Below, one piece after another: positions 32,167-55,344 of a DNA stretch of 64,000 nt. The translations under genes and the position numbers were made by a program. Source of the stretch: Pseudonocardia petroleophila (GTDB lineage Bacteria > Actinomycetota > Actinomycetes > Mycobacteriales > Pseudonocardiaceae); NCBI RefSeq assembly GCF_014235185.1, contig NZ_CP060131.1, positions 1,619,501-1,683,500 on the forward strand, written 5' to 3'. The first letter of the stretch is position 1. Each line of letters starts with the position of its first letter. Under the pieces are notes generated by a model. That model saw nothing but the letters and a program-made list of their open reading frames with translations, searched no databases and was not told the origin of the DNA.

Positions 32167-32525
32167 TCGTCTATCTTGACGATCGTCGAGCCAACCGGGC
32201 AAGTGAACAGACCATGAACATCGACGCGCGTCGAAACAGGCCGACTCCCCGGGCACCGCCACTGACCGTGGCTCTCGCGTGACGAACGTGCGGTGTCGGG
32301 CCGCCACGCGACGCAACGGGGCGCCGACTCGGAACGCCCCGGAGCCGCGTTCGTGCGGTCACGCCGAGACGGACCAGCGGAGCGTTGCGGACGCGGTCGA
32401 CCACGTGCCCGACGTGGCGCATACTCCATGGTCGCCAGGTGGCGTGCGTCACAGGTGTAACCCGGGGGCCGGCCGCGACCTCCACCAGACGACACACCCG
32501 ACACCCCGCACCCGAGGAGCCCCCG
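32167..32525. other. Intergenic region between arsR and the D-rich gene
   Basis: About 360 bp without a convincing gene. It holds the presumed arsR promoter/operator (dyad at 32167-32182) at the left and, at 32454-32466, a ggtgtaacccggg motif about 60 bp before the start of the D-rich gene. The same motif occurs upstream of the paralogue at 20390-20824 and in its deleted copy. Confidence 0.55.
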
Positions 32526-32939
32526 ATGTCCGACATCTACTACACCAGCGACGGCAGCATCGTCGAGCTCACCGACGCCGACGGCGACGGCTACCAGGAG
32601 ACCACCCTCGTCGACCAGAACGCCGACGGCGTGGTCGACGTGGAACTCGTCGACCGGGACGGCGACGGCTACGACGACTACGCCGGCTTCGACAACACCC
32701 CGGAGGACCACCGCTTCCAGGCCGACGTCATCGCCTACGACACCGCCGAGGAGGGCGGCCGTGACCACCGCACCGACGTCGTCTACGACGACCGGGACTT
32801 CGACGGGACCTTCACCGGCCCGGACGACACCGCCTCGCACAACTACACCGGGCCCGTGGCCAACGCCAACCCCTACGCGAGCCCCTACGGCGACGACGAC
32901 GTGCAGGCGACCGTCAACGAGGTCTACGACCAGCGATGA
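32526..32939 (+). CDS. Acidic hypothetical protein with D-x-D-G repeats (paralogue)
   Basis: Acidic protein of 137 residues without signal peptide or membrane segment. Loop-like units in series: DADGDGYQET, DQNADGVVDV, DRDGDGYDDY, FDNTPEDHRF and DDRDFDGTF, then NANPYASPYG. It has the same order of elements as the protein at 20390-20824. Such loops suggest calcium or other divalent-metal binding; no function is known. GAGGAG precedes the ATG. Confidence 0.72.
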   Translation: MSDIYYTSDGSIVELTDADGDGYQETTLVDQNADGVVDVELVDRDGDGYDDYAGFDNTPEDHRFQADVIAYDTAEEGGRDHRTDVVYDDRDFDGTFTGPDDTASHNYTGPVANANPYASPYGDDDVQATVNEVYDQR

Positions 32940-32975
32940 GGCTGACCACCTGACGAACCGGGGTTCGCCTGGGCG

Positions 32976-33007
32976 CTGGTGGAGACGAGGGAATCGTCCT
33001 ATGTGGA
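32976..33007 (+). repeat. Left copy of tRNA-Ala-derived attachment-like repeat
   Basis: Bases 32976-32996 match 44076-44097 (ctggtggagacgagg then gaatcg) with a single-base gap, and 32995-33007 (cgtcctatgtgga) match 44239-44251 exactly. The left copy therefore looks like the right-hand segment with about 140 bp deleted. Together the two copies bracket the metal island. Confidence 0.7.
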
Positions 33008-33142
33008 CGATTACGTCGTGCACCCCGGAGACGAGCATCCACGCCGCTAGGTAACGAACGCGATCGTCGGGGAGGCAGAGGTGTAGAGGAGCCCGGCGAC
33101 AACGCTGGCCGCGACGTCATGGATCGCTTTATAGTTCAGCTC

Positions 33143-33505
33143 GTGCTGACCAGTGAGACCCGTGAAGCCGCCCTCGCCCGCGTCGGCAAGGCTCTCGCCG
33201 ACCCCACCCGCTGCCGCATCCTGGTCGCACTCCTCGACGGCGCCGAGTTCCCCGGGCAACTCGCCGCACAACTCGCGCTGACCCGTCCGAACGTGTCCAA
33301 CCACCTGGCCTGCCTGCGCGGCTGCGGACTGGTCACCGCCTCTTACTACGGCCGACAGGTCCGCTACGCGATCGCCGACCCCCACCTCGCCCGCGCGATC
33401 ACCGAACTGATGGCCGTCGTCCTGGCCGTCGACACGGACCCCGCCTGTCTCGACGAGGACGACTTCAGCCCGACCGCATCACGCACCCCCGGGAACACGG
33501 CATGA
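33143..33505 (+). CDS. cmtR: CmtR-type Cd(II)/Pb(II)-sensing ArsR/SmtB repressor
   Basis: Metal-responsive repressor of 120 residues. The CmtR motif VSNHLACLRGCGL is present. When the GTG at 33143 is used as start, the ligands fall at Cys57, Cys61 and Cys102 (DTDPACLDE), the same numbers as in M. tuberculosis CmtR. That start lies 7 bases after the -10 TATAGT (33130-33135), so the transcript is probably leaderless; an upstream in-frame ATG at 33119 precedes the promoter. A dyad TCAGC-N4-GCTGA at 33136-33149 overlaps the start and could be the operator. It overlaps the transporter gene by 4 bp. Confidence 0.9.
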   Translation: MLTSETREAALARVGKALADPTRCRILVALLDGAEFPGQLAAQLALTRPNVSNHLACLRGCGLVTASYYGRQVRYAIADPHLARAITELMAVVLAVDTDPACLDEDDFSPTASRTPGNTA

Positions 33506-34218
33506 GCGACGACGCCCGTCCTGGCCTCGACCGCACTACCGCGACCTGCGCCGACTCGTGTTGCGCCACGTCCGAGACCGCACCGGCATCGGCCGCGCTC
33601 CGACCGCCTACGGATCGGCTGACCCCGCGACGACGTGCGGCCCTTCACCGGCGAGTCCGCCTACTCGTCGCCGCAACGATCACCTACAACGTCATCGAGG
33701 CAGTCGTCGCGATCAGCGCGGGCCACCTCGCTTCGTCCACCGCCCTGATCGGCTTCGGCCTCGACTCCATCATCGAGGTCGCCTCCGCTACTGCTGTCGC
33801 CTGGCAGTTCGCCGGAACCGACCCGCAGGAGCGCGAGCGCACGGCGTTGCGCGTCATCGCGGTGTCGTTCGTCGCTCTCGCCGTCTACGTCGGTGTGGAG
33901 TCCGTCCGGAACCTGCTCGGCGGCGCCGATCCCGACCATTCCACCGTCGGCATCGTCCTCGCCGCAGTGTCGCTGCTGATCATGCCCTTCCTCTCCGCCG
34001 CACAACGCCGGGCGGGCCGCGAGCTCGGATCCACCAGTGCGGTCGCCGACTCCAAGCAGACGCTGCTCTGCACCTACCTCTCAGCCGTCCTCCTCGTCGG
34101 ACTCCTGCTCAACAGCCTGTTCGGCTGGGCCTGGGCCGACCCCGTCGCCGCACTCGTCATCGCCGCCGTCGCCCTCCGCGAAGGACGGGAGGCATGGAGG
34201 GGACAGCACTGCTGCTGA
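33502..34218 (+). CDS. Cation transporter (CDF-like), partner of CmtR
   Basis: Membrane protein of 238 residues with about six hydrophobic helices (LLVAATITYNVIEAVVAISAGHLASSTALIGFGLDSIIEVASA, AVYVGVESVRNLL, GIVLAAVSLLIMPFLSA, LLCTYLSAVLLVGLLLNSLFGWAWADPVAALVIAAVAL). The GFGLDS and VADSKQT motifs are variants of the paired metal sites of cation diffusion facilitators. Extra cysteines occur at the N-terminus (CADSCCATS) and C-terminus (HCC). Its start overlaps cmtR (ATGA), so export of cadmium, lead or zinc is likely. Confidence 0.86.
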   Translation: MSDDARPGLDRTTATCADSCCATSETAPASAALRPPTDRLTPRRRAALHRRVRLLVAATITYNVIEAVVAISAGHLASSTALIGFGLDSIIEVASATAVAWQFAGTDPQERERTALRVIAVSFVALAVYVGVESVRNLLGGADPDHSTVGIVLAAVSLLIMPFLSAAQRRAGRELGSTSAVADSKQTLLCTYLSAVLLVGLLLNSLFGWAWADPVAALVIAAVALREGREAWRGQHCC

Positions 34219-34317
34219 GCTGCAGTTCCCATTCCTCCGCAGCAGGTTGTTGCCCGGGTTGAAGGCGGCCGGGGGCCCGCGCGGAGCACCCTCCGTCGAG
34301 AGAAAGGCGTGTGAAGG

Positions 34318-34380
34318 CAAGCGCCGGCAAACCTCACCGGAGGCGTCCAGCAGAGGTTTCCCGGCCTGCGCGGCCGTGAG
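34318..34380. repeat. Structured element, copy A
   Basis: About 63 bp resembling 50291-50358: both carry GCCGGCA, then AGGCGTCCA in the loop position, then CGGCC-GCGCGGCC and TGAGC. In this copy an inner stem AAACCTC pairs with GAGGTTT; in the other copy the equivalent positions pair as CCGCC with GGCGG. It lies in the ~250-bp gap between the cation transporter and the second DUF1508 gene. Confidence 0.4.
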
Positions 34381-34412
34381 CACTCACCCATCAGGCGCTG
34401 CGTTCGAGCTCG

Positions 34413-34650
34413 ACCGCCGCAATGGTCTGCCGCCATCGGAAGTGATCACCGTCGATCGGGAGGCGTGATGGCCGGGACGTTCGAGGTCTACCAGGACCGC
34501 GCAGGCAAGTTCCGGTTCCGGCTCAAGGCCAGCAACGGCCAGGTCGTGGCCACCGGCGAGGCCTACGAGACCAAGGCCGCGGCGAAGAAGGGCTGCGAGT
34601 CCGTCCTCCGGGCCGCCGAGGGCGCACCGATCGAAGAGGTCGATGCCTGA
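34413..34650 (+). repeat. Duplicated 238-bp block, copy 2
   Basis: Direct repeat of 23472-23709. Over the promoter the -10 TAGGGT of copy 1 has become AATGGT, losing the TANNNT pattern, while the ribosome site and coding sequence are preserved. Confidence 0.8.
34468..34650 (+). CDS. YegP-like DUF1508 small protein (copy 2)
   Basis: A 60-residue DUF1508 protein differing from copy 1 (23527-23709) only at residue 50, where Glu replaces Asp (RAAEGAPIEE here, RAADGAPIEE there). GGGAGG precedes the ATG. The coding sequence is intact but the upstream -10 is altered, so expression may depend on another promoter. Its position inside the metal island suggests it was copied from the chromosome. Confidence 0.8.
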   Translation: MAGTFEVYQDRAGKFRFRLKASNGQVVATGEAYETKAAAKKGCESVLRAAEGAPIEEVDA

Positions 34651-34987
34651 CTCTCTGCCCGGCCATCGGCCGGATCCGATGGCCCATGGCCTACTGCCGC
34701 GGCGCCTGGTGCGTTCTCTTCCACGACGCCGTCCGGCGACTCGACGACCGGTCGGTCGAACTGGCTGCGTGACCCACGCCGAGCTCTCGCGCCCGCGGGT
34801 CGAGGTCCACGAAACCCCCGTCGCGTTCGATCCGGCGAACCGCTGCGCGGGGCCTGTCGCCAGGTGGACCTCCCCGACATCGACGTGCCCGCGGTGGCAC
34901 TGCTGGACCCCGACGGCGCCATCGTCCGCCACGCCGCCGCGGACGGTGTGGCCCGGACCGACGCCTCGGCCGGGCCACACCGACCCG
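34651..34987. other. Intergenic stretch with a possible gene remnant
   Basis: About 340 bp without an intact gene. On the plus strand one frame (about 34853-34985) reads VDLPDIDVPAVALLDPDG, then AIVRHAAADGVARTD, with protein-like composition but no start, and the preceding part fits only a different frame. It may be the decayed 3' end of a gene; nothing can be named. Confidence 0.3.
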
Positions 34988-35623
34988 TCACACCTGCTGG
35001 AGCAGCGTGTCCATTTCGGTGATCTCGGCCTGCTGGGTGTCGATGATCTTCTGCGCCAGCGCGAGCGCGTCCGTGTCGGCACCGTCCTGCAGCTCGGTCT
35101 GCGCCATCTCGACCGCGCCCCGGTGGTGCTCGGTCATCATCTCCAGGAACATCTGGTCGAACGCCGGCCCGGACGCACCCTGCAGCTGCTGCATCTGCTC
35201 GGGGGCCATCATCCCGCCCATGGCGCTCATGTCCCCGCCGTGATCCATACCGCCCATGCCACTCATGCCGCTGCCCTCGGCGGGCACCTCGGCGCCCCAC
35301 TCCTCGAGCCAGCCGACCATCGTGTCGATTTCGGGCTGCTGCCCGCCACCGATCCGCGCAGCCAGGTCGATCACGTGCGCGTTCTGGCTACGACCTGCCG
35401 CCGACTCGGCCATCTCGACCGCCTGACGGTGGTGCGGGATCATGCCCTGCACGAACGCCACGTCCGCGTCGTTGTGCTCGCCCTGCGTCGCCGACGACGG
35501 CGAGCCGCCCGGGGCGGCGGACCCGGAGGAGGAGGTGTCGGGGCCGGCGGCACAGCCGGTCAGGATCAAGCCCGCGGCCGCGATACCGGCCAGCAGGCGC
35601 GCTGAAGAAACCCGTGCGTTCAT
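34988..35623 (-). CDS. DUF305 lipoprotein, Met/His-rich, probable copper binder
   Basis: Exported lipoprotein of 211 residues. The signal peptide ends in a lipobox LTGC with Cys24. DUF305 follows: VAFVQGMIPHHRQAVEMAESAAG and, repeated, MMTEHHRGAVEMAQTEL, four-helix modules with HHR and Met residues. Between them is a Met/Gly/His segment (SGMSGMGGMDHGGDMSAMGGMM) that would suit Cu(I). Relatives occur in copper-resistance loci. It is likely anchored outside the membrane. A small membrane-protein gene lies upstream on the same strand. Confidence 0.88.
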   Translation of the reverse strand: MNARVSSARLLAGIAAAGLILTGCAAGPDTSSSGSAAPGGSPSSATQGEHNDADVAFVQGMIPHHRQAVEMAESAAGRSQNAHVIDLAARIGGGQQPEIDTMVGWLEEWGAEVPAEGSGMSGMGGMDHGGDMSAMGGMMAPEQMQQLQGASGPAFDQMFLEMMTEHHRGAVEMAQTELQDGADTDALALAQKIIDTQQAEITEMDTLLQQV

Positions 35624-35682
35624 CGGTGAGAACCTCTCGTACGTCTGGGGAAGTGCGGATCAACCGAGTCGCTCGGTCGACC

Positions 35683-36066
35683 TCACGTCCGCAGGACGCA
35701 GAGGAGTGCCAGTCGTGCCGGAGAGGTGGCCGGTGGGGCACGCGGCGCAGGACGCACGCCGGATCTGCCCGCGCGGGGCGCGACCGGGGCGAAGTCCGAC
35801 CTCCGCCACAGCACCGCCGAGACCAGCACGACGGCCACGGCCGTGAGCACGGCCAGGCACAGGTGCAACAACGCGGACTCATGGTCCTCGCCGGAGTGCG
35901 CCGGGCCCGGGTCCATGTCGGATTCCACCATCGCGACGGCGGAGACTCCCGTGCTGTCCGGTGTCACCGACAGGTGGTGCATCCCCACCAGGCCGACGAA
36001 CAGACCGGCGACCAGGACGCCGAGCAGGACTGCCCGTCTCCCCCGCTGCGCCACCGACCTGATCAT
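35683..36066 (-). CDS. Small membrane protein, DUF6153-like
   Basis: A 127-residue protein with two hydrophobic segments (AVLLGVLVAGLFVGLVGMHHLSV and LHLCLAVLTAVAVVLVSAVLW) separated by an acidic, His-containing loop (MDPGPAHSGEDHESALLHLC). The MHH and HLCLAVL features resemble actinobacterial DUF6153 proteins, often found beside copper and DUF305 genes. Role unknown, possibly periplasmic metal handling. The ATG at 36066 is 8 bases after a TACTCT -10, suggesting a leaderless mRNA. Confidence 0.65.
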   Translation of the reverse strand: MIRSVAQRGRRAVLLGVLVAGLFVGLVGMHHLSVTPDSTGVSAVAMVESDMDPGPAHSGEDHESALLHLCLAVLTAVAVVLVSAVLWRRSDFAPVAPRAGRSGVRPAPRAPPATSPARLALLCVLRT

Positions 36067-36200
36067 CAACTCGAAGAGTACCCCGGCCCGGATTCGCCAC
36101 CCGCGAGCACATCCGGGGTTCCGTCGATCGGGATCGTCGGGCACGCTCGGAGCGTGAACAGGGACGCGGCCGGAGTCGACCGCGCTCCTCGTCACCGCTC

Positions 36201-37292
36201 GTGAACGGTGTGCAGCACGCCGCCGTGGCGATGCGTCGGCTCGGATTGCGCCTGACGGTCGTCGCCGTCGTGGTGGGCCTGCTCGCCGCTCTGGTCGGAG
36301 TCGTGTTCGTCGCGATGTCCGCGGTGCTGGGTTCCGGGGTCCGGCAGTCGGGGGTGTGCGGCCCGAGTGGTTCCGGGGTGCCGATCGAGGCCTCCGGTGA
36401 CGCGCAGACCACCGACGAGCAACTCGTCAACGCGGCCGCCATCGTCGCCACCGGCCGCGACATGGGCGTCCCCGAACGCGGGCTGTGGGTGGCACTGGGA
36501 ACCGCGTTGCAGGAGTCCGGCCTGCGCAACCTCGACTACGGCGACCGCGACTCCCTGGGTCTGTTCCAGCAACGTCCGTCCCAGGGATGGGGCAGCCCCG
36601 CCCAGGTCCGCGACCCCCGCTACGCGGCCACCCGCTTCTACGAGCGGCTCGTCGAGGTCCCGGGCTGGACGGAGATGCCGCTGTGGCAGGCGGCGCAGAC
36701 CGTGCAGCGCTCGGCCTTCCCCGTGGCCTACGCCAAGTGGGAGCAGACCGCGGCCGACATCCTCGCCGAGGTCGACGGCAACCCCGCCCTGCGTGTCGCC
36801 GCCGCGGTGCAGGACTGCGTCCCCGGCTCGGTCACTCCGTTCGACGGCGGCGGCACCGGATGCGTCGAGGACGACCCGACGACGAACGGCTGCATCACCT
36901 CCACGACGCTCTACGCGGTGACACAGGCAGCCGCGGCGTTCGGCGGGCTGCGCAAGGGCCCGGTCATCCGGTCCGCGGGCTGCCACGCACCACGCCCGGC
37001 CAACCCGACCAGCGACCACCCCCTGGGCAAGGGTTGCGACTTCTTCCCCGGCGAGGGCGGCCGCTTCGCCCGGGGGGTCGAGGTGGACGACGGGTGGCGG
37101 GCAGCCGAGTGGTTCCGGGTCAACGCGCAGGCCCTGCAGGTCGACTACATCATCTGGCAGGGCCGCATCTGGACCCCCACCTCGCCCGACCAGGACGGCT
37201 GGGGCCGCCCCTACAGCGGCGGCGGCGTGTACGACCCCTCCGACGCCGTCGGTGGCCACTACGACCACATCCACGTCTCCTTCGCCTCGTAA
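36201..37292 (+). CDS. Membrane-anchored lytic transglycosylase-like wall hydrolase
   Basis: Protein of 363 residues with an N-terminal membrane anchor (about 14-45, LRLTVVAVVVGLLAALVGVVFVAMSAVLG). A lysozyme-like domain follows: AAAIVATGRDMGVPERGLWVALGTALQESGLRNL, with the catalytic-type Glu in LQESG, then DSLGLFQQRPSQGWG. A C-terminal domain (from ~235, GCHAPRPANPTSDHPLGKGCDFFPG to GHYDHIHVSFAS) resembles the ARB_07466-type module. Such enzymes are typical of actinobacterial conjugative elements, where they open the cell wall. No other conjugation gene is left nearby. The start is GTG at 36201. Confidence 0.82.
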   Translation: MNGVQHAAVAMRRLGLRLTVVAVVVGLLAALVGVVFVAMSAVLGSGVRQSGVCGPSGSGVPIEASGDAQTTDEQLVNAAAIVATGRDMGVPERGLWVALGTALQESGLRNLDYGDRDSLGLFQQRPSQGWGSPAQVRDPRYAATRFYERLVEVPGWTEMPLWQAAQTVQRSAFPVAYAKWEQTAADILAEVDGNPALRVAAAVQDCVPGSVTPFDGGGTGCVEDDPTTNGCITSTTLYAVTQAAAAFGGLRKGPVIRSAGCHAPRPANPTSDHPLGKGCDFFPGEGGRFARGVEVDDGWRAAEWFRVNAQALQVDYIIWQGRIWTPTSPDQDGWGRPYSGGGVYDPSDAVGGHYDHIHVSFAS

Positions 37293-37441
37293 CGGGCGGC
37301 TCCCCACCGGAGGTCGGCAGCCCGCGTGGGACCGGCCGACAGCCGGTGCGTTACGGCGTCCCCTGCACACCGAGGCGGTCCGGGCGGACCGGCACGGACG
37401 ACGGTGGGGTCGGGTACCCGCGGGTGAATCCGTCCTTGCTG

Positions 37442-37466
37442 CGTATGCCCCATAGGGGTATACCGT
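37442..37466. promoter_or_regulatory. CsoR operator overlapping the copB-type promoter
   Basis: Pseudo-palindrome GTATGCCCC-A-TAGGGGTATAC (37442-37462) fits the G/C-tract CsoR box. It overlaps a -10 TACCGT at 37461-37466, about 28 bp before the ATPase ATG. Repression by apo-CsoR with release by Cu(I) is expected. Confidence 0.8.
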
Positions 37467-37493
37467 ATCTACCGAGGACGCCTGGAGGCACCG

Positions 37494-39554
37494 ATGAACG
37501 ACACGCAACGGCCCGACGGCCCTGTGACGACCGGGCCGCGCCCCGCGCCGGACGACACCACCACCGACCGCGGCGGTCACCGTGGGCACGGCGACCACGC
37601 TGCGGCGTTCCGCGACCGGTTCTGGGTGAGCCTGGCGCTCGCGGTGCCCGTGGTGTTCTCCAGCCACATGGTCGCCGACCTGCTGGGCTACCACGTCCCC
37701 TCCTGGGCCGCCTGGATGGCGCCCGTGCTCGGCACGGCCCTGTTCCTCTACGGCGGGCAACCGTTCCTCACCGGCGCGGTCGGCGAGCTGCGGGGGCGCC
37801 GCCCGGGGATGATGACACTGGTCGCGCTGGCGATCACCGTGGCCGCGGTCGCGAGCGCGCTGACCACACTGGGCGTCGGCGGGCTGATGCTCGACTTCTG
37901 GTGGGAGCTCGCGCTCCTCATCGTGATCATGCTGCTCGGCCACTGGCTGGAGATGCGGGCGCTGGGCCAGGCCTCCGGCGCGCTCGCCGCGCTGGCCGAG
38001 CTGCTGCCCGACACCGCCGAACGGGTCGGGGCCGACGGTGCGGTCACCTCCGTTCCGCTCGCCGAGCTGCGGGTCGACGACGTGGTGCTGGTCCGCTCCG
38101 GCGCCCGCGTGCCCGCCGACGGACAGGTCAGCGACGGGGCCGCCGAGATGGACGAGTCCATGGTCACCGGCGAGTCCCGCCCCGTGCCGCGCGCCGTCGG
38201 CGACCGGGTGGTCGCCGGCACCGTCGCCACCGACTCCGCCCTCCGCGTCCGGGTGCAGGCCGTCGGCGAGGACACCGCTCTGGCCGGGATCGGGCGCCTG
38301 GTCGCCCAGGCGCAGGCCTCGACGTCGCGCGCCCAGGCGCTCACCGACCGCGCCGCCGCGGTGCTGTTCTACTTCGCCGCCGTCGCCGGCGCGGTCACCT
38401 TCACCGTGTGGGCGGCGCTGGGCGACCTCACCGCGGCGGTCGAGCGCACCGTCACCGTGCTGGTGATCGCGTGCCCGCACGCGCTCGGGCTGGCCATCCC
38501 GCTCGTCATCGCGATCTCGACGTCGATGTCCGCGCGGGCCGGGATCCTGGTGAAGGACCGGCTGGCGCTGGAGCGGATGCGTTCGGTGGACACCGTGCTG
38601 TTCGACAAGACCGGCACCCTCACGCGGGGCGAGCCGGCCGTCGTCGCGGTCCTGCCCGCCGACGGGGTGACCGACGCCGAGCTGCTGGGCGCCGCCGGCG
38701 CGGCCGAGTCCGACTCGGAGCACCCGCTCGCCCGTGCCGTCGTCGCCGCCGCCCGCGCGGCGACCGCGATCCCCACGGCCACCGGGTTCCGGTCCCTGAC
38801 CGGACGCGGTGTCCGGGCCGTCGTCGACGGCCACGACATCGCCGTCGGCGGGCCGACGATGCTGCGCGAGCTCGGGGTCACCGCGCCGGGCGAGCTCACC
38901 GGGCCGACCGCGACCTGGGCGGACCGGGGCGCGACGGTGCTGCACGTCGTGCGCGACGGACGGGCGATCGGGGCGCTGGCCCTCGCCGACGACATCCGAC
39001 CGGAGTCCCGCGAGGCGGTGCGCGATCTGCACGCCGCCGGGGTGCGCGTAGTCATGATCACCGGTGACGCGCGGGACGTGGCCGAGGCCGTGGGCGCCGA
39101 GCTGGGCGTCGACGAGGTACTCGCGGAGGTGCTGCCCGCCGACAAGGACGCCGCGGTCGCCCGCCTGCAGGCTCGTGGGCTGACGGTGGCCATGGTCGGC
39201 GACGGGGTCAACGACGCCCCCGCGCTCGCCCGCGCGGACGTGGGCATCGCGATCGGCGCCGGCACCGACGTGGCCGTCGAGTCGGCCGGGGTGGTGCTCG
39301 CCTCCGACGACCCGCGCGCCGTGCTCGCCGTACGACGGCTGTCCGAGGCCGGGTACCGCAAGATGTGGCAGAACCTCATGTGGGCCACCGGCTACAACGT
39401 GCTGTCGGTGCCACTCGCCGCCGGGGTGCTCGCCGGAGCCGGGTTCGTGCTGCCGGTCGCCGTCGGGGCCGTGGCGATGAGCGTGTCGACCATCGTCGTC
39501 GCCCTCAACGCCCAGCTGCTGCGCCGGGTCGACCTCGGCGTCACCGCCGGCTGA
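37494..39554 (+). CDS. copB: Copper-translocating P-type ATPase, CopB type (CPH motif)
   Basis: P1B-type ATPase of 686 residues that exports copper across the cytoplasmic membrane. The N-terminus is His-rich (RGGHRGHGDHAAAF) instead of an HMA domain. The transmembrane metal motif is CPH (about 326-328, VIACPHALGLAIP), which defines the P1B-3/CopB group. Also visible are MVTGES, DKTGTLT with the phosphorylated Asp371, HP in SEHPLA, MITGDAR and [12 protein letters not shown]. It is the first gene after a CsoR box and is followed by csoR, copZ and a second ATPase. Confidence 0.93.
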   Translation: MNDTQRPDGPVTTGPRPAPDDTTTDRGGHRGHGDHAAAFRDRFWVSLALAVPVVFSSHMVADLLGYHVPSWAAWMAPVLGTALFLYGGQPFLTGAVGELRGRRPGMMTLVALAITVAAVASALTTLGVGGLMLDFWWELALLIVIMLLGHWLEMRALGQASGALAALAELLPDTAERVGADGAVTSVPLAELRVDDVVLVRSGARVPADGQVSDGAAEMDESMVTGESRPVPRAVGDRVVAGTVATDSALRVRVQAVGEDTALAGIGRLVAQAQASTSRAQALTDRAAAVLFYFAAVAGAVTFTVWAALGDLTAAVERTVTVLVIACPHALGLAIPLVIAISTSMSARAGILVKDRLALERMRSVDTVLFDKTGTLTRGEPAVVAVLPADGVTDAELLGAAGAAESDSEHPLARAVVAAARAATAIPTATGFRSLTGRGVRAVVDGHDIAVGGPTMLRELGVTAPGELTGPTATWADRGATVLHVVRDGRAIGALALADDIRPESREAVRDLHAAGVRVVMITGDARDVAEAVGAELGVDEVLAEVLPADKDAAVARLQARGLTVAMVGDGVNDAPALARADVGIAIGAGTDVAVESAGVVLASDDPRAVLAVRRLSEAGYRKMWQNLMWATGYNVLSVPLAAGVLAGAGFVLPVAVGAVAMSVSTIVVALNAQLLRRVDLGVTAG

Positions 39555-39575
39555 GCCGGCCGCGCTCGAATGCCT

Positions 39576-39590
39576 TACCCCCCTAGGGTA
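39576..39590. promoter_or_regulatory. CsoR operator upstream of csoR
   Basis: TACCCCCCTAGGGTA overlaps a TAGGGT -10 (39584-39589) 28 bp before the csoR ATG. The G/C-tract palindrome resembles the box at 37442 and predicts autoregulation. Confidence 0.75.
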
Positions 39591-39616
39591 TCGTCGCCTG
39601 TGACGAAGGAGGACGC

Positions 39617-39898
39617 ATGAACGGGTACGCGCAGGACAAGGATGCCTACCTCAAGCGGATGCGCCGCATCGAGGGCCAGGTGCGTGGCATCGCGAAGATG
39701 ATCGAGGACGACAAGTACTGCATCGACGTCCTCACCCAGGTCTCGGCCGTCACCAAGGCTCTGGAGGCCGTGGCGTTGGGGCTGCTCGACGAGCACCTCA
39801 AGCACTGCGTCACCCAGGCCGTGGCCGAGGGCGGTGCCATCGCCGACGAGAAGGTCGCCGAGGCCAGCGCCGCGATCGCCCGGCTCGTCAAGTCCTGA
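39617..39898 (+). CDS. csoR: Copper-sensing repressor CsoR
   Basis: All-helical Cu(I)-responsive repressor of 93 residues. The metal ligands Cys35, His60 and Cys64 (DKYCIDV; DEHLKHCVTQ) match the Cys-His-Cys set of M. tuberculosis CsoR. The N-terminal RMRRIEGQVRGIAKMI helix is the family signature. GAAGGAGG precedes the ATG. Two CsoR boxes (37442 and 39576) identify its probable targets, the CopB ATPase and its own operon with copZ, the secreted protein and copA. Confidence 0.95.
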   Translation: MNGYAQDKDAYLKRMRRIEGQVRGIAKMIEDDKYCIDVLTQVSAVTKALEAVALGLLDEHLKHCVTQAVAEGGAIADEKVAEASAAIARLVKS

Positions 39899-39927
39899 AC
39901 ACCACGAGGAAGGAAACGCAGTACGCC

Positions 39928-40137
39928 ATGAGCGAGACCACTTACACCGTCACCGGGATGACCTGCGACCACTGCGTCGCCTCGGTCACCGAGGAGATCA
40001 CCGAGATCGACGGCGTCACCGCGGTCGCGGTCGACCTGCCCACCGGCGCGGTCACCGTCACCAGCGACGCGTCGGTCGACGAGGCGCGTGTCCGCGCCGC
40101 GGTCGAGGAGGCCGGCTACCGCCTCACCGCGGCGTAA
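39928..40137 (+). CDS. copZ: Copper chaperone CopZ (HMA domain)
   Basis: Single heavy-metal-associated domain of 69 residues with the Cu(I) site MTCDHC at residues 11-16 and the typical ferredoxin-like fold (YTVTGM, VAVDLPTGAVTV, AAVEEAGYRL). It carries copper in the cytoplasm to the ATPases and to CsoR. It starts 29 bp after csoR on the same strand with AGGAAGG upstream. Confidence 0.94.
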   Translation: MSETTYTVTGMTCDHCVASVTEEITEIDGVTAVAVDLPTGAVTVTSDASVDEARVRAAVEEAGYRLTAA

Positions 40138-40182
40138 CCACCACCCCGGCAGCACCGCTGCCGCCCGACCAGGAAACGGATC

Positions 40183-41130
40183 ATGAACACTGCAGCGAAG
40201 CTCTCCGCCTACGGTGCGGCGCTCGCCCTGCTCACGGCAGGAGCGTTTGCGACCGGATCCGCTGTCGGTCCCCTCACCACCGTCGCCGCCTCCGGCGGAC
40301 ACGGTGCGATGTCCGGCGATGAGGTCGCCGGGCATGGGGACACCCACAGCGGCACCGTCCCGGGGACCGCCGACCAGCCCGCGGGGCTGGCGTCGAGCAG
40401 GGGCGGCTACACCCTCACGCCCACCGACCCGACGCTCACCCCGGCCACCCCCGACACCTTCTCCTTCGTCATCACCGGACCCGACGGCGCCCCGGTCATC
40501 GCGTACGACGTCGAGCACGACAAGCGGATGCACCTGATCGTCGTACGGCGCGACACCACCGACTTCGCCCACGTGCACCCGGAGATGGCTCCGGACGGCA
40601 CCTGGTCGGTCCCGCTCACGACGGCGTCGGCGGGTTCCTACCGGGCGTTCGCCGACTTCACCCCGACCGGTGGCGAGGCCACCACGCTCGGTGTCGACCT
40701 CGTCGCGCCCGGGGTGTTCGAACCGGTCGCCCACACGCCGAGCCGCACCGCGCAGGTCGACGGCTACACCGTGGAGCTGACCGGGGACCTCATCGCCGGT
40801 CAGGCGTCGCCGGTCACGTTGGCCGTGAGCCGCGACGGCGTACCGGTGACCGATCTGCAGCCCTACCTGGGGGCGAACGGCCACCTGGTCGCGCTGCGCC
40901 AAGGCGATCTCGCCTACCTGCACGTGCACCCCGAGGAGACGGCGAGCGCGGGGCCGGAGATCCCGTTCGTCGCCGAGGTCCCCACCGCCGGCGGTTACCG
41001 GCTGTTCCTGGACTTCCAGCACGACGGCGTCGTGCGCACCGCGGAGTTCACCGTGCCGACCAGTTCTGAGCCCACTGGGCTCCCATCCAGCCCGGCCCCG
41101 GCGCACGACGCCGACGGTCACGGCCACTGA
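40183..41130 (+). CDS. Secreted His-rich protein of the copper operon
   Basis: Exported protein of 315 residues: signal peptide ~1-36 ([21 protein letters not shown]), a His/Met-containing linker ([18 protein letters not shown]), then two Ig-like beta domains. Each ends with an HVHPE motif (DFAHVHPEM near 130 and YLHVHPEE near 249), and the C-terminus is HDADGHGH. The paired HVHP motifs suggest extracytoplasmic copper binding. The same gene order (copZ, this gene, copA) is seen in other actinobacteria to my knowledge. Its exact role is unknown. Confidence 0.78.
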
Positions 41131-41150
41131 TCCGGGCGAAGGAGGAGACG

Positions 41151-43409
41151 ATGAGTACGACCAGCACGCCCACCGGGGCCCCCGTCACCGACATCGAGCT
41201 CGCGATCGGCGGCATGACCTGCGCGTCGTGCGCGAACCGGATCGAGCGCAAGCTCAACAAGCTCGACGGCGTCACCGCCACCGTCAACTACGCCACCGAG
41301 AAGGCCAAGGTCACCTACGCCGAGGGCGTCGACCGCGACGACCTGCTCACCGCCGTCGAACAGGCCGGCTACACCGCGCGGCTGCCCGAACCGCCCCGCG
41401 ACACCGACGACGACGTCGAGGACGACGTCGAGGACGGCCCGGTGCGCGCGCTGCGCACCCGGCTCGTCGTCAGCGCCGTGCTCTCCGTGCCGGTCGTCGC
41501 GATGGCGATGGCCCCGGTGCTGCAGTTCACGTACTGGCAGTGGCTCTCCCTCACCCTGGCCGCGCCGGTCGTGGTGTGGGGCGCGCTGCCCTTCCACCGC
41601 GCGGCGTGGACCAACCTGCGCCACGGCGCGGCCACCATGGACACGCTGATCTCCCTGGGCACCCTCGCCGCGCTGGCCTGGTCGCTCTACGCGCTGTTCC
41701 TGGGCACCGCGGGCGTGCCGGGTATGACCCACCCCTTCGAGCTGACCATCGCGCCGTCCGACGGCGCCGCGAACATCTACCTCGAGGTCGCCGCCGGCGT
41801 CACGACGTTCATCCTGGCCGGGCGCTACTTCGAGGCCCGCTCCAAGCGCCGCGCCGGGGCCGCACTACGGGCGCTGCTCGAACTCGGTGCGAAGGACGTC
41901 GCGGTCCTGCGCGACGGCGAAGAGGTGCGGATCCCGACCGCGCAGCTCGCCGTCGGGGACCGGTTCGTCGTCCGCCCGGGCGAGAAGCTCGCCACCGACG
42001 GGGTCGTCGAGGAAGGCAGCTCCGCGGTCGACGCCTCGATGCTCACCGGCGAGTCCGTGCCCGTCGAGGTCCGTCCCGGCGACGCCGTCGTCGGCGCCAC
42101 GGTCAACGCCGGTGGCCGGCTGGTCGTGCGCGCCACCCGGATCGGTTCGGAAACCCAGCTCGCCCAGATGGCACGGCTGGTGGAGGACGCCCAGAACGGC
42201 AAGGCGCAGGTCCAGCGTCTCGCCGACCGGATCTCCGGGGTGTTCGTGCCGATCGTCATCGCGCTGGCCGCCACCACCCTCGGGTTCTGGCTGGGCACCG
42301 GTGCGGGCGCGGCCGCGGCGTTCACCGCCGCCGTCGCCGTGCTCATCATCGCCTGCCCCTGCGCACTCGGGCTCGCCACGCCGACCGCGCTACTGGTCGG
42401 CACCGGCCGTGGAGCCCAGCTCGGCATCCTGATCAAGGGCCCGGAGGTGTTGGAGTCCACCCGCCGCGTCGACACCGTGGTGCTGGACAAGACCGGCACC
42501 GTCACCACCGGCCGGATGAGCCTGGTCTCGGTGCACACGTCCGAGGACGAGGACGTGGTGCTGCGGCTGGCCGGGGCGCTGGAGAGCGCGTCGGAGCACC
42601 CGATCGCCGCCGCGGTGGCGGCCGGGGCCCGGCAGCGGGTCGGCGCGCTGCCCGACGTCGAGGACTTCACCAACGTCGAGGGCCTCGGAGTGCAGGGCGT
42701 CGTCGACGGGCACGCCGTGCTGGTCGGGCGGCCGGCGCTGCTGGAGCAGTGGAGCCAGCCGCTGACCCCGGAGCTCGCCGCGGCCAAGGCCGCCGCGGAC
42801 GAGCGCGGGCACACCGCGATCGCCGTGGCGTGGGACGGCGAGGCGCGGGCGGTGCTCGCCGTCGCCGACACCGTCAAACCCACCTCGAAGGAGGCGATCA
42901 GCCGGCTCCGGGCACTCGGGCTCACCCCGGTGCTGCTCACCGGCGACAACGCCACCGTGGCCCGCACCGTGGCCGACGAGGTCGGCATCACCGAGGTCAT
43001 CGCCGAGGTCCTGCCCGCCGACAAGCTCGACGTCGTCAAGCGGCTCCAAGACACGGGCAGGGTCGTGGCCATGGTCGGCGACGGCGTCAACGACGCCGCC
43101 GCGCTCGCCCGAGCCGACCTCGGTCTCGCCATGGGCACCGGCACCGACGTCGCCATCGAGGCGAGCGACATCACGTTGGTCCGGGGCGATCTGCGCGCCG
43201 TCCCGGACGCTATCCGGCTTTCCCGGCGCACGCTGGGCACGATCAAGGGCAACCTGTTCTGGGCGTTCGCCTACAACGTCGCGGCCCTGCCACTGGCCGC
43301 GATGGGACTGCTCAACCCGATGATCGCCGGAGCGGCGATGGCGTTCAGCTCGGTGTTCGTCGTCGGGAACAGCCTGCGCCTGCGCAGCTTCCGCTCCGAC
43401 GCCATCTGA
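41151..43409 (+). CDS. copA: Copper-exporting P-type ATPase CopA (CPC motif)
   Basis: P1B-1 ATPase of 752 residues that pumps Cu(I) out. N-terminal HMA domain with MTCASC (about residues 23-28), eight predicted helices, CPC at 402-404 ([13 protein letters not shown]), DKTGTVT with the phosphorylated Asp446, [17 protein letters not shown] and [10 protein letters not shown], then the C-terminal YN and MxxSS motifs ([30 protein letters not shown]). It is the last gene of the csoR operon, complementing the CPH-type ATPase at 37494. GAAGGAGG precedes the ATG and a strong hairpin follows. Confidence 0.96.
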
Positions 43410-43424
43410 GCCCGGGGCAACGCC

Positions 43425-43458
43425 GGTGGCCGACCCCCGGCTGTGGGGGTCGGCCACC
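43425..43458 (+). terminator. Hairpin terminator after copA
   Basis: Perfect 14-bp inverted repeat (43425-43438 and 43445-43458) with a 6-base loop, 15 bp after the copA stop. No T-run is present. It probably ends the copper operon transcript. Confidence 0.8.
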
Positions 43459-43530
43459 AGCCGTTCACGATCGTGGGCCAGCGGCACCGCCAGAGTGGTG
43501 GATGGTCCCTCGTCGAGCAGCCCGGGACGG

Positions 43531-43863
43531 TCAGCGAGGCGACGCCGGTCCGGAACCGGCCGACAGGCGTTCGAGGATCACGCGCGCGACGTCGACCCCA
43601 CCCGGCATGCCGTGGTGATGGTGGGCGAGGCCGCGGGCCGGTGCCGCGTCCACGACTGTGGCCCCGGCGTCGTCCGACGGCCCACCGGCCGGTACGACGA
43701 CCTCGACCGCGACCAGTCGGCCGCCGACGGCAGCGGCGCGGGTTGTCATCTCGACGACGTCAGTGCCCAGGAGATGTCGAGCCGGGCGGTGGGGCACCTC
43801 GGTCGTCCCGTCGGGGGTGACACGCTGCACGACGTCGATCGGTTCGCCGTCGAGGTGCAGCAC
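43531..43863 (-). other. Open frame of unknown origin next to integrase remnant
   Basis: A 110-residue open frame (RVTPDGTTEVPHRPARHLL, VGGRLVAVEVVVPAGG, HHHHGMPGGVDVARVILERL) with protein-like composition. It overlaps the integrase remnant in another frame and has no clear start or family. It may be a fragment of a gene fused to the integrase by deletion. Confidence 0.25.
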
Positions 43864-44000
43864 ACGTCGGTCGTGGACTCCCGCAGACGCAGCGGCTCAC
43901 CCGTCAGCGGGTCCTGACCGGCGTAGACGATCACCTGGAAGGACTTCCCGCGGCGGCGGATCATGTCGCGCGGGCGCCCCTGAGCAGGCTCTTCGGCCAC
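43746..44000 (-). pseudogene. int: Tyrosine-recombinase (phage-type integrase) N-terminal remnant
   Basis: From GTG at 44000 the first ~40 residues (GRPRDMIRRRGKSFQVIVYAG, then QDPLTGEPLRLRESTTD) match the arm-binding N-terminus of actinomycete integrases, which normally continue for 350-450 residues. After RESTTD the frame degenerates and stops at 84 residues, with no core-binding or catalytic Arg/His/Tyr region. It lies 76 bp from the tRNA-Ala fragment and points away from it, the usual position of an island integrase. Inactive. Confidence 0.75.
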
Positions 44001-44076
44001 ACGAGGACCGTACTCGATGCCATCGTCGATTGATCGGATCTGGCGAGCGGATCGAGGCTGTTCTAACTGGTCAGGC

Positions 44077-44121
44077 TGGTGGAGACGAGGGGAATCGAAC
44101 CCCTAACCCCTGCCTTGCAAA
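44077..44121 (-). other. 3' half of tRNA-Ala(TGC): attachment-site remnant
   Basis: Read on the minus strand this is the anticodon loop TTTGCAA (44121-44115), GGCAG, a T-arm with TTCGATT, the acceptor strand CGTCTCC, A and CCA (44079-44077). The 5' half that should pair with it is absent: upstream of the loop the sequence is GCACG instead of CTGCC. The break in the anticodon loop is where tyrosine integrases usually cross over. It is not a functional tRNA. Confidence 0.8.
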
Positions 44122-44195
44122 CGTGCGGTGTGGCGCCTGCTCGGCCGGATCCAGCTGGTGAGCGTGATGCTGCCACTGCCCACGCTGCCTGCGTT

Positions 44196-44235
44196 GGATG
44201 CCAGCGGCTGCCGTTGGATGCCATCGTGGATGCCA
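44196..44235 (+). repeat. Three direct GGATGCCA repeats near the tRNA fragment
   Basis: GGATGCCA occurs at 44196-44203, 44216-44223 and 44228-44235, within 160 bp of the tRNA-Ala fragment. Short clustered direct repeats beside an att site resemble integrase arm-binding sites. The wider stretch 44122-44518 contains no gene I can support. Confidence 0.5.
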
Positions 44236-44518
44236 ATTCGTCCTATGTGGATAAACCCGAGCGACCGACCTTTCATTCAGACAGTGGGCCTGCTGCGTCG
44301 CACTGGCAGCGGGTGAAGCCTCTATCTGGGAGGGTTGCCATCGACGGCGACCGGTTTCGTCGCTGGACGGTGGTCCTGCGGAGCTAAGCCATGATGTTGG
44401 CACGTCTGCTCGGCCGCGTATCGAGCAGATCCACGCCCGCTCCGAGTCCCTTGAGACTGAGAACCCAGCCGGGCGATTGCGTGCGGAGGCACGCCTGTAC
44501 CGCGGGCTCGAACTCGAC

Positions 44519-45547
44519 TCAGTCTGGGCACACCCGGAGGAGCCGGCCGCTGAGGAACCGTCCCTGACTGTCGAGGGTCTCAGGCCTCGTGCTCCGCCTA
44601 CGGGAGTCCACGAGGAACAGCTGCCCGTCGAGTTCGGCCATGTCGGTGACGTTCACGTAGTTGTCGGGCACCTCCACTGGGATCTCGCTGCGGGCCTGCT
44701 CGACGCCGGTGGCGGTGAGCACGATCCGCAGTAGGTGGCTGCGCTCCGGCGCGCCGGGGAGGCTGGAACTGAGAAGCGCAGCGGACGCGATGACGAGGTC
44801 ATCGTCTAGGAACACCATGGCGGCGGGTTGGCGGTAGTCGCGGTCGCTGGCGGCGAGGTCGGACCCCTCGAAGGTGCCGGTGCCGAGTTCGGCAACCGTT
44901 CTGATCAAGCCGGGGCCCCCGCCCGTGCGTGGTATAGAGACGACGACGCCGGTGTAGACCGATCCGAGGAACCGCCATCCGCCGACGAACACACGGTCTC
45001 CGCGCACGGCAAGGGTCGTGGGGAAGAAGCCCGGGACGTCCCCGGTGTTCCACAACTGCCGCAGCTGCCCGTCGGCGGTGATGATGAACGGCAGGACGTT
45101 GCCGCCGGCGAGAATTGCGGCGAAGGCCCCGTCGCCGGCAGCGGCCAGCGCGAGGACTGGACGTCCGACGTTGTGGATGACTGTGGTGCCGGGTGGGCTG
45201 AGGTTGAGTCGCACAATACGTTCGCCGCGTGTGGCGAAGATGTCGCCGGACCCCGGTTCGTCGCTGGTGAGGTGGCCGACGCCGGTCTCAGTACCGAGGT
45301 CGACCATCGGCGGGTCCTCGTCCAGTGCGATCAACCGCACCCGCGACGGCGACCCTTGAGGGCTAAGCAGAACGGGTTCGCCGGCGTCGGAGTACACGAA
45401 GCTACGGCTGGTCACCGGGAGTACGGAGGTCGGGAAGATCTGTCGGCCCGCCGCGTCGATGTCGGTGATGATCGACGTGCCCACGCACTGACCGAGGATC
45501 CGGCGAATGCGCCGTCGCATGAGCAGGACGAGCCGTCGGTTCTTCAT
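44519..45547 (-). CDS. Hypothetical protein, beta-propeller-like
   Basis: A 342-residue protein without a recognised family. It contains repeated beta-rich segments of ~45 residues (GRQIFPTSVLPVTS, RVRLIALDEDPPMVDLG, GDIFATRGERIVRLNL, VLALAAAGDGAFAAILAGG, PTTLAVRGDRVFVGGWRFLG, DLVIASAALLSSS, MAELDGQLFLVDSRRRS), a pattern that suggests a propeller. No signal peptide is clear; the N-terminus is very basic (KNRRLVLLMRRRIRR). The ATG at 45547 has GAGGGAGG at proper spacing. Base use is less GC-biased than in the catabolic regions, fitting acquired DNA. Confidence 0.6.
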   Translation of the reverse strand: MKNRRLVLLMRRRIRRILGQCVGTSIITDIDAAGRQIFPTSVLPVTSRSFVYSDAGEPVLLSPQGSPSRVRLIALDEDPPMVDLGTETGVGHLTSDEPGSGDIFATRGERIVRLNLSPPGTTVIHNVGRPVLALAAAGDGAFAAILAGGNVLPFIITADGQLRQLWNTGDVPGFFPTTLAVRGDRVFVGGWRFLGSVYTGVVVSIPRTGGGPGLIRTVAELGTGTFEGSDLAASDRDYRQPAAMVFLDDDLVIASAALLSSSLPGAPERSHLLRIVLTATGVEQARSEIPVEVPDNYVNVTDMAELDGQLFLVDSRRRSTRPETLDSQGRFLSGRLLRVCPD

Positions 45548-45562
45548 GCGTGCCTCCCTCAC

Positions 45563-46006
45563 TCCCTTCTCGACTCGCCAGGCGCGAAAGCGACGTTACG
45601 AACTGACACATGTGCAGCGCATGAGATGCATGCTGAATGCCGGCATCCCAGGATGCCCGGCCAGCAGGGGTCAGTTCAACCTTCGGCCATCCTCGTCTCG
45701 CCATCCGATACGGCGGCCCAGGACAACCCGGCCCTGACGCCGACGAGATCCTCATCCACCCCGGGAACGGCCGGAACTCCTACCGGGCAACGGACGCGCA
45801 CGTCGATGTCCGGGACGGGATCCTCATGGTCGACGGCGAAACCCGATAGAGCCGCGCCGGAAGCGAGCACATGCCCGGTCTCACCAGGACCAGCAAGTAT
45901 CTTTGCGAGCCCGACGGTGGCCCCGTCGGTCGTAGTAAGAGTCGTAGCGGACAAGGACTCGATCGCTACTCGGGCAAGTGCCCGTAGCGACAGGTGAGAA
46001 ACTTGA
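45563..46006. other. Gap without a supported gene
   Basis: About 440 bp between the hypothetical gene and the nuclease remnant. A 70-codon plus-strand frame ends at 45849 (ILIHPGNGRNSYRATDAHV) but has no clear ribosome site or relatives I recognise. No repeats or hairpins stand out. Confidence 0.3.
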
Positions 46007-46780
46007 TCAACACCACCGTTTGCGTGCACAGAATCCTCCGGTGAGCGCTCCGTCCGGCAGGTTGCCACTGGGGGCGTCGACGTAGACCTCTTCATCCCAG
46101 TCGGCCACGCCGTTGCCGTCGTCGTCGCCGTACACCTTCGGATTCCCGCACGGCGGGGCATAGATGCCCTCAGCCCGGTACTCGGCGATGCCGGCCGCGG
46201 AGGCGATGCGCTCGTCGTAGGTGGCGTTGGCCTGGTCTTCGGCAGGCTTGCCCCGGCCGTTGAGCACGATCTCGTTTCCCAGGTCATGCGCGTACATGGG
46301 CAAGCCATCACGATCCGTTGACTAGGAGTACTGGACGTAGCGCAGCAGCCGTCCGATCTCGTCCGACTCGACTCCGGGCTCGGCGTGCAGCTTGATCGGA
46401 TGCCCCCCGACGATCCCGCGGGTGAACTCGGTCGCCCCAGGGCATGCGCAGGCGTCCACATCGGGAACCTGGACGCCGAGCAGTCGTACCGTGCGCCCGT
46501 CAGCGAGCTCCAGGGTGTTGCCATCAAGGACTCGCGCTACCGACACGAGCTCCCCGCCGGGGTGGCACGTGTCCTCGTCGTCGTACACGGTGTCGTCGGA
46601 GAAGCACTCCGACTCAACCGCGCGATCGACCGTCGATGCTGCGACGACCTGCGGTGCGGCGGCGCTGTTCGATGCTTCGGAAGCCACGCTCGGAGCGTCG
46701 ACCTCGTTCCGTGCGTTGTTGCAGGAGCCGACGATGACGACGAACGCGACGGCTCCGAACAGCAGCCTGCCTTTACCCAC
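46007..46780 (-). pseudogene. Staphylococcal-nuclease-like secreted protein interrupted by a stop codon
   Basis: Two frames in the same phase are separated by a single TAG at 46324-46322. The first (46780-46322) has a signal sequence with lipobox-like VGSC, then an SNase/thermonuclease-like start (VSVARVLDGNTLELADGRTVRLLGVQVPD, ACPGATEFTRGIVGG, GRLLRYVQYS). The second (ending 46007) continues the SNase fold (MYAHDLGNEIVLNGRGKP, ANATYDERIASAAGIAEYRAEGIY) and ends in an excalibur-like GDDDGNGVADWDEE and CARKRWC. The phase match shows that a nonsense mutation split one gene. A truncated product could still be exported. Confidence 0.72.
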
Positions 46781-46864
46781 CCGTGCACACTCCTGTAGCC
46801 AGATCGCTCATAGAGCGTCCAGACCGGGAGGCTAGGTGATCGCTCAATCGCAGGAGCCTGGTCG

Positions 46865-47158
46865 TTACGACGCATTCGAGCGGAACGAGTCGGCCGCACG
46901 CAGGGCGTCGGCGAGGTCGATCAGGTCGACGTCGCCGCGCGCGGTCAGTCCGGGTCGGACGATGAACCGGGTGTCGGCCACGCAGATCCGGTACTGCTGG
47001 CGGCCGCGATCCATCGCCGCTACGACGAGAGCGTCGGATGCCGCTTCGACCGCCTCCGCCCGTGTACCCGCAGTGCCGTCGGCCAGGTGCTGCACGTTCT
47101 CCACCCCGGCGGTGAGCACGCCGACGGTCCAAAGTTGTGGTGTCCACCCCCGCAGCAT
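46865..47158 (-). CDS. Small hypothetical protein
   Basis: A 97-residue frame from ATG 47158 (TAGTRAEAVEAASDALVVAAMDRG, QYRICVADTRFIVRP, DVDLIDLADALRAADSF) with alternating helix and strand composition. No family is recognised and the start is uncertain. It lies in the accessory zone downstream of a frameshifted gene on the same strand and may share its transcript. Confidence 0.45.
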   Translation of the reverse strand: MLRGWTPQLWTVGVLTAGVENVQHLADGTAGTRAEAVEAASDALVVAAMDRGRQQYRICVADTRFIVRPGLTARGDVDLIDLADALRAADSFRSNAS

Positions 47159-47215
47159 CGTGGAATCGGTGCGGCCGCGTCGGCGACCGCACCGAGTTAT
47201 CCACAGTTGCTGCCT

Positions 47216-47741
47216 CTACTCGTCCTCGGTGGGGTTGTCCCCCAGCAACCGGGCCGCCTGGCGCCAGGCGCGCAGCATCGAGGTGTAGGCGGTGGCGTCG
47301 CAGATCTCCCAGGTGACCGGCCCGGCCTGGATTCGCAGCACCGCCGGGACCGCCCCACCGGCGCGGGCGGGCTCGAACGCCGAGATCACCCGCGGGGATC
47401 CTGCGTAGCGGACCATCGCCGCGACCGTCGTCGGCCCGATCACCAACGGCCGGTGCCCCGCCACCGCCGGTCGGAGCGACCGGGCCGCGACGGCGGCGTC
47501 GGTCCAGCCGTCGGCGATCGCGCGGGCGGTGATCCCGGCCCGCAGGTACACCAGCACGCAACCGAGGGTGAGGCCGAGCTGCTGCTCCGCGGTCCCGACA
47601 TGGGCCAGATCGAGCCGAACTGGGACGAGCCCCGCGGCGTGGACCACCACGCCGGTGACCACGGAGGACTTGGGTGATCAGCCGCGCCTGCGCGGTCGGG
47701 CTGGTGTCCTCGCCGGTGCAGTGGCTGGTACGTGCGGTCAT
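47216..47741 (-). pseudogene. Hypothetical gene with a single-base frameshift
   Basis: A well-formed start (GGGAGG, ATG at 47741) opens MTARTSHCTGEDTSPT then AQARLITQ. After about 24 codons a one-base shift near the sequence caagtcctcc is needed to enter the long downstream frame (SSVVTGVVVHAAGLVPVRLD through DGWTDAAVAARSLRPAVAG to LLGDNPTEDE, stop at 47216). Read together this would be one protein of ~174 residues. The downstream part alone could start at GTG 47662 but lacks a ribosome site. The family is unknown, resembling proteins carried on actinomycete mobile elements. A sequencing error is the alternative. Confidence 0.5.
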
Positions 47742-49452: not shown

Positions 49453-49507
49453 ACACGGTCGCCGCCGGCCGCGGTCCCCCGCCTGACAAGGCAGACGGCC
49501 GGTCTCG

Positions 49508-49639: not shown

Positions 49640-49792
49640 TCCCGCAGGTTCAGGGGATCTCTGAACGGTGCCGGGTCCGGGCGGAGCCCGGCCGCCGGAG
49701 GCTCCGCGCAGCGCATCCGAGCCGCACGGATGACGATCGTGTCGATATGACTAACGATCATCATATGGTTCCAACCGGAAGCTCACCGCGAC

Positions 49793-50191: not shown

Positions 50192-50290
50192 CGAAGATCC
50201 TCTCATCGTCGAGCCTTGAAGGCGTTTACCCAGCACCGACGACTGCCGAGCCCCGAACTCATCGGCCCGGAGGAGGTTGACACAGGGCTC

Positions 50291-55334: not shown

Positions 55335-55344
55335 GCGCCCGATC

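Follow-up and report, generated by a model that had tools for sequence, protein, structure and literature searches.

Copies of the tRNA-Ala 3' end

The window, a 64-kb stretch (G000:C1:1619501-1683500) of a single-contig Pseudonocardia genome of 6,490,139 bases, holds an island of about 11 kb with predicted copper and cadmium genes (element 1, 32975-44121) and the first part of a second element that reaches a tRNA-Ala(TGC) gene (alaT). ARAGORN detected no tRNA inside the window, and the intact gene of 76 bases was located on the minus strand at window coordinates 87177-87252, 23 kb right of the window. It is adjoined beyond the right window edge by tRNA-Ile(GAT), also on the minus strand, and further right by a 350-aa gene and, on the minus strand, two long genes, which from sequence and order we take to be gyrA and gyrB. 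Two sites derived from the tRNA were found in the window:

32975-32996, minus strand: left relic of the tRNA-Ala(TGC) 3' end, 22 of 23 bases; anticodon-loop part absent
44075-44121, minus strand: middle attachment site, with 47 bases in common with the tRNA site; flanked on the left by the right arm of element 1 and on the right by the left arm of element 2

The original prediction had described a tRNA-Ala(TGC) 3' half at 44077-44121, broken in the anticodon loop, and these 45 bases of the 76-base gene agree with the intact copy base for base. The identical stretch extends to 47 bases (44075-44121 = 87175-87221), running from the anticodon loop to the tRNA 3' end plus two outside bases, and the break lies at the 5' edge of the anticodon loop. 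The second copy, predicted at 32976-32996, was recovered at 32975-32996 as GCTGGTGGAGACGAGGG-AATCG, which matches 22 of 23 bases of the tRNA 3' end: 17 exact bases are followed by a position one G short, and the copy stops after AATCG. All three copies share one orientation, two being complete and one reduced. The first 16 bases of the relic, GCTGGTGGAGACGAGG, have three exact matches in the 6,490,139 bases searched, the left, middle and intact tRNA sites, and one additional place with one mismatch; as a control, the pattern read backwards gave three genome matches with up to one mismatch. Because the exact matches are confined to these three sites, a chance origin of the left copy appears very unlikely.

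Element 1

The features of element 1 are as follows:

33119-33505, plus strand: CmtR, Cd(II)/Pb(II)-sensing ArsR-family regulator (NCBIfam equivalog NF047906, 173 bits, cut-off 150)
33502-34218, plus strand: CDF-type cation efflux protein, PF01545 (Cation_efflux) above cut-off, NCBIfam TIGR01297 (CDF) below cut-off
34468-34650, plus strand: DUF1508 protein (family scan)
34988-35623, minus strand: DUF305 protein (family scan)
36201-37292, plus strand: putative wall hydrolase (plasmid-borne relatives)
37494-39554, plus strand: heavy-metal P-type ATPase, copper type by subfamily score (TIGR01511 above cut-off)
39617-39898, plus strand: CsoR-type metal-sensitive repressor (PF02583)
39928-40137, plus strand: HMA-domain (CopZ-like) metallochaperone (PF00403)
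40183-41130, plus strand: 315-aa protein, without Pfam or NCBIfam match
41151-43409, plus strand: heavy-metal P-type ATPase with HMA domain, copper type by subfamily score
43872-44003, minus strand: element-1 integrase remnant, 44 residues; rest of the integrase absent
43865-44121: element-1 right end, aligning with the alaT-proximal end in the relative G001

The predicted contents, namely a cmtR/CDF pair, DUF305, two copper ATPases, CsoR and CopZ, were borne out by family matches, with the CDF protein partly below cut-off. Both copper-type ATPases also scored above the cadmium-family cut-off, at lower values, and the cargo is predicted to confer copper, cadmium and lead tolerance. The proposed wall hydrolase had no Pfam or NCBIfam match, and its name is kept as putative from its relatives in 398 plasmid records, 11 of the 15 listed being annotated as M23, NlpC/P60 or C40.

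The integrase is dead, as had been proposed. Its remnant (44003-43872, minus strand) corresponds to residues 12-55 of the element-2 integrase with 64% identity, and of 20 genome matches to the Phage_integrase domain (PF00589) none falls within 32975-44121, leaving element 1 with no catalytic domain. PF12846 (VirB4) and PF01580 (FtsK/SpoIIIE) had no match in the same interval, and the ten element-1 proteins scanned included no relaxase and no coupling protein. The alignment of the right end with G001 covers 262 bases at 88.6% identity, 215 of them outside the tRNA; at alaT of G001 only an integrase fragment was matched (86 residues, 77%).

At G000:C1:5870141-5922374 (loci L116-L118), 39576-43397 has a counterpart copper block at 86% identity and 34945-37297 a counterpart DUF305/hydrolase block at 88% identity. 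These two blocks are about 41 kb apart, the copper block near two Phage_integrase matches (5870141 and 5872082). In G053 (locus L082), a CDF gene 70% identical to that of element 1 lies 256-840 bases from the intact alaT, at the end opposite to the CDF position in element 1.

Element 2

Element 2 spans 44075-87221 (43.1 kb) and ends at the intact tRNA gene:

44122-64000: element 2 within the window, with an IS110 transposase (48178-49452), luciferase-like monooxygenases and dehydrogenases
Past the window, to 87174: HpaB, MobF relaxase, VirD4-like coupling protein, GntR and 459-aa integrase, then the tRNA

The 459-aa integrase gene is complete and encodes a Phage_integrase domain, the relaxase belongs to the MobF/TrwC family, and the VirD4-like coupling protein scored under the NCBIfam cut-off and over the Pfam cut-offs. 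The cargo comprises oxidoreductases, among them HpaB, two luciferase-like monooxygenases, a flavin reductase and a member of the glyoxalase/dioxygenase superfamily. At window coordinates 82824-83702, between a HAD-type hydrolase and the integrase, lies a gene for an APH phosphotransferase-family protein (PF01636).

The sole VirB4 family searched, PF12846, had a single genome match, outside element 2 (1866726-1867712), and none of the ten genome matches to FtsK/SpoIIIE (PF01580) fell in 1652475-1706721, which covers both elements. Of the features of integrative and conjugative elements (ICEs) of the type IV secretion type, the integrase, relaxase and coupling protein are present, and the VirB4-type mating-pore ATPase was unmatched by PF12846. 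Since both families were unmatched inside it, element 2 looks mobilizable rather than self-transmissible on the VirB4 and FtsK families tried, and its gene set (recombinase, relaxase, no PF12846 match) fits an integrative and mobilizable element, whose transfer would depend on the mating pore of a helper.

The two elements share little DNA. In blastn (E ≤ 1e-3), element 1 (32975-44074) and element 2 (44122-87174) matched only at the integrase start, over 109 bases at 74% identity, and among many short pieces in tblastx the integrase start was the only credible one.

Attachment-site layout

The original prediction had noted the same short sequence after both tRNA pieces. The 13-mer CGTCCTATGTGGA indeed occurs twice in the genome (32995-33007 and 44239-44251); it sits directly on the left relic, but 117 bases past the core at the middle site. 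The elements of this layout are as follows:

32992-33012: palindrome AATCGTCC-TATGT-GGACGATT on the tRNA relic, agreeing at 9 of 9 fixed positions with the GTCCNNNNTGGAC site in relatives' left arms
44219-44235: arm pair TGCCA-N7-TGCCA in the element-2 left arm, +97 from the core
44240-44252: palindrome-like site GTCCTATGTGGAT in the element-2 left arm, +118, with 1 of 9 mismatches

The layout recurs in relatives. Arm sites were counted at 21 distinct fragment ends, the middle site and 20 others; L048, which lies on a contig that stops short, and L045, a duplicate of L044, were left out. A TGmCA-N7-TGmCA pair was present at 10 of the 21 ends (nine from relatives), always starting exactly 97 bases past the core; in 300 sets of dinucleotide shuffles the count averaged 0.04 and never exceeded 2. 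A palindrome within two of nine mismatches of GTCCNNNNTGGAC lay at +118 in eight of the ten paired ends and at +121 in a ninth, and the pair with an adjacent TCC-N3-7-GGA occurred at six of the 21 ends and in no shuffle set. On the right side, an arm pair 64-66 bases before the core was seen in element 2, in seven of the ten relatives whose alaT has an integrase match beside it, and in three of 44 regions without one. These pairs are probably integrase arm sites. Other direct repeats are borne by some of the 11 ends that lack the strict pair and are taken as arms of other integrases.

The element-1 palindrome was compared with GTCCNNNNTGGAC by eye. The shared 'cgtcctatgtgga' is part of the conserved left attachment arm of an alaT-targeting element family. 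The reading of the short sequence, the shared 13-mer, as a sign of two copies of one unit was given up because relatives carry it as a conserved arm site; outside the integrase start the two units had no DNA match in blastn. For window positions 33032-33117 (about 86 bases, palindrome to cmtR), six other genus genomes gave matches of 80-86% that did not include the remaining left end.

Probable displacement of element 1 from the tRNA

Element 1 very probably represents the remains of an integrated element that was pushed away from the tRNA by a second element at the same tRNA end. It would have entered the 3' end of tRNA-Ala(TGC), after which the greater part of its integrase and about 143 bases at its left attachment site would have disappeared; element 2, with an intact integrase gene, would subsequently have integrated at the same tRNA end, likely displacing element 1. 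This order of events, insertion, decay and second insertion, is the one that we infer. The proposed tandem array with a reduced left site was supported, the second unit proving to be a different, 43-kb element that reaches the intact tRNA. The array is real and well formed, though ordinary, and one of its units is likely stranded.

A deletion of about 140 bp had been suggested for the left site and would explain its shortness. The fixed arm spacing in relatives puts the missing length at about 143 bases, in support of that estimate: by element-2 spacing (44096 to 44239), the stretch between relic and palindrome, including the anticodon-loop part and the arm pair, is likely gone. Element 2 should be excised through recombination of 44075-44121 with the tRNA, which would restore element 1 beside an intact tRNA. 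Element 1 itself should not excise because its left site is without the anticodon-loop region and the arm pair, and it would remain stranded. A metal-tolerance island may in this way become fixed in the chromosome, as its outer end decays and a newer relative takes over the tRNA.

The state of the site without the island was approached through the relative G024, whose alaT region, as taken, carries no tRNA fragment and no integrase of this alaT element family. Neither finding that would have spoken against the original prediction was thus encountered: the tRNA gene agrees with the fragment, and this relative did not carry the fragment in the alaT region taken. Its flank-gene products are 66-96% identical to those of the present genome, and the left-flank gene ending near window coordinate -4264, for which no Pfam or NCBIfam name was found, lies about 91 kb from alaT here versus 4.9 kb in G024. 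More than the length of two elements thus separates flank and tRNA here. Next to alaT, DNA identity is 85.6% for G001 versus 78.5% for G024. The ars genes to the left of element 1 have their G024 matches about 1 Mb away from alaT. In the left flank, 32526-32939 and 20390-20824 encode two small proteins of a DGDGY-rich family without Pfam match, which has several more related places in the genome.

Several observations weigh against this history. At alaT, G024 also lacks the interval between about -4.3 kb and 32.9 kb, pieces of which lie elsewhere in that genome, so the left boundary of element 1 is set by the relic alone. The junction that preceded element 1 was not found: the query 32500-33130 matched ten of the 62 genus genomes, its own included, and no listed match of the flank part (32500-32975) lay within 20 kb of an alaT match on the same contig. 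The cargo of element 1 is mosaic, two blocks having 86-88% copies elsewhere in the same genome, so part of it need not have arrived with the original element. Beyond its 215 bases, G001 resembles the element-2 integrase and then an element-2 block, and ends and cargo have therefore been exchanged between elements. Among the arm sites, the strict pair is absent from 11 of the 21 fragment ends and the element-1 right arm bears one half of it only. The palindrome pattern by itself is weak (8 of 21 ends, where shuffles averaged 1.9 and reached at most 7), and two-mismatch matches occur at other offsets in six of the 11 ends without the pair; it counts as evidence because of its fixed place beside the arm pair.

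A single large element from 32975 to the tRNA, interrupted or rearranged, with the middle site as an internal duplicate, has in its favour that G001 shares the element-1 right end and also a block inside element 2 (61065-62339, 85%), so that the two have exchanged parts. The middle site is nevertheless a full junction, in which the element-1 remnant and right arm face a complete left arm with the pair at +97 and the palindrome at +118, and the integrase remnant is only 64% identical to the element-2 integrase; we regard a single element as improbable. Still harder to sustain is a tandem duplication of one element followed by cargo replacement in one copy: the palindrome is common to the two left ends and an integrase start to the two right ends, but that start is all that blastn finds in common, and related yet different elements are spread across the genus. 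Just as little credit is given to a chance match at the left, with the true border of element 1 elsewhere, since the relic, although short and without an empty-site junction, has a 16-base exact match limited to three genome sites and abuts a 13-base site found solely at the two left ends.

The tRNA-Ala(TGC) hotspot in the genus

The tRNA 3' half (up to three mismatches) was found in all 62 genus genomes and more than once in 21. In the regions taken from 61 of these genomes (G055 was left out), fragments rather than genes made up 23 matches in 22 genomes. Six of 60 regions, without an intact tRNA-Ala(TGC), were excluded from the orientation and integrase counts, which left 54 oriented regions; locus L119 was not used. 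Extra tRNA-end copies were in the tRNA orientation and on its 3' side in 18 of 18 rows, some of them weak. More than one such copy in a locus occurred, apart from the present genome, in G013, G015 and G016, each of which had two within 14 kb; the ends in G015 and G016 are identical and hence hardly independent.

A match to the element-2 integrase lay within 300 bases of alaT in ten of the 54 oriented regions. Related integrases occupied 23 named loci, several in the same genomes as the genus survey: ten were at tRNA-Ala(TGC), 11 had Lys, Arg, Met, Leu, Phe or Thr as the nearest upstream tRNA, one had an alaT fragment only and one had none. In G003, G015, G016, G021 and G038, the tRNA-to-fragment distance was 1.2-2.2 kb, pointing to very small units at alaT, and no element-2 integrase match was found next to alaT. 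The ends in G021, G026, G034 and G061 start with TGTGGA or TATGGA past the core, with GTGGCAC direct repeats in three of them, which suggests a different integrase family with the same target.

The tRNA-Ala(TGC) gene is accordingly an integration hotspot of Pseudonocardia, with a layout that can be tested for these integrases. Among the papers listed, judged by titles and abstract openings, none dealt with islands at tRNA-Ala(TGC) in Pseudonocardia. A broader reading joins two claims: that Pseudonocardia alaT elements share a fixed layout, with pairs at +97 and about -65 and the GTCCNNNNTGGAC palindrome at +118 as a dedicated dimer-binding, directionality site, and that deletion of what lies between tRNA and palindrome is a means of fixing useful cargo, e.g., metal resistance, in the chromosome. 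Taken together, these two claims are rather doubtful.

Comparison with known systems

PMC5704250 describes how an element integrates and decays to a cis-mobilizable element (CIME), and how a newer one then accretes in the attR site. As in these streptococcal cases, a decayed, recombinase-less element here lies beside a newer one at the 3' end of the same target gene, and the middle site joins the right arm of one to the left arm of the other. Like a CIME, element 1 has no integration or transfer genes left, and same-orientation direct repeats of the tRNA 3' end mark the borders, with the intact gene outermost, as in tandem accretion. A CIME, according to that source, keeps both attL and attR; in element 1 the right core is complete (47 bases), whereas only 22 bases of the left site remain, and these lack the crossover region, the anticodon-loop part and the arm pair. 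Host and cargo also differ.

Actinobacterial elements in tandem at one tRNA are likewise reported in PMC3218068 for actinomycete integrative and conjugative elements (AICEs), namely Fean5518/Fean5534 at a Frankia tRNA-Lys and Sav3708/Sav3728 at a Streptomyces avermitilis tRNA-Arg; the Frankia pair was excised singly and together. AICEs carry an FtsK/SpoIIIE-type Tra protein. In element 2 PF01580 is unmatched, but a MobF relaxase is encoded together with a VirD4-like coupling protein.

The alaT element of Pseudonocardia dioxanivorans CB1190 (G010, NC_015312.1) has an integrase 65-66% identical at the same tRNA-Ala(TGC), a left arm pair at +97 and a right arm pair at -64, with the fragment 62.7 kb away. 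It differs in that a single tRNA fragment was found (pattern with up to three mismatches) and its +118 site misfits the palindrome (five of nine mismatches). Tandem accretion at a tRNA is thus already known, and what is new here is the tRNA site, the fixed arm layout and the stranded metal island.

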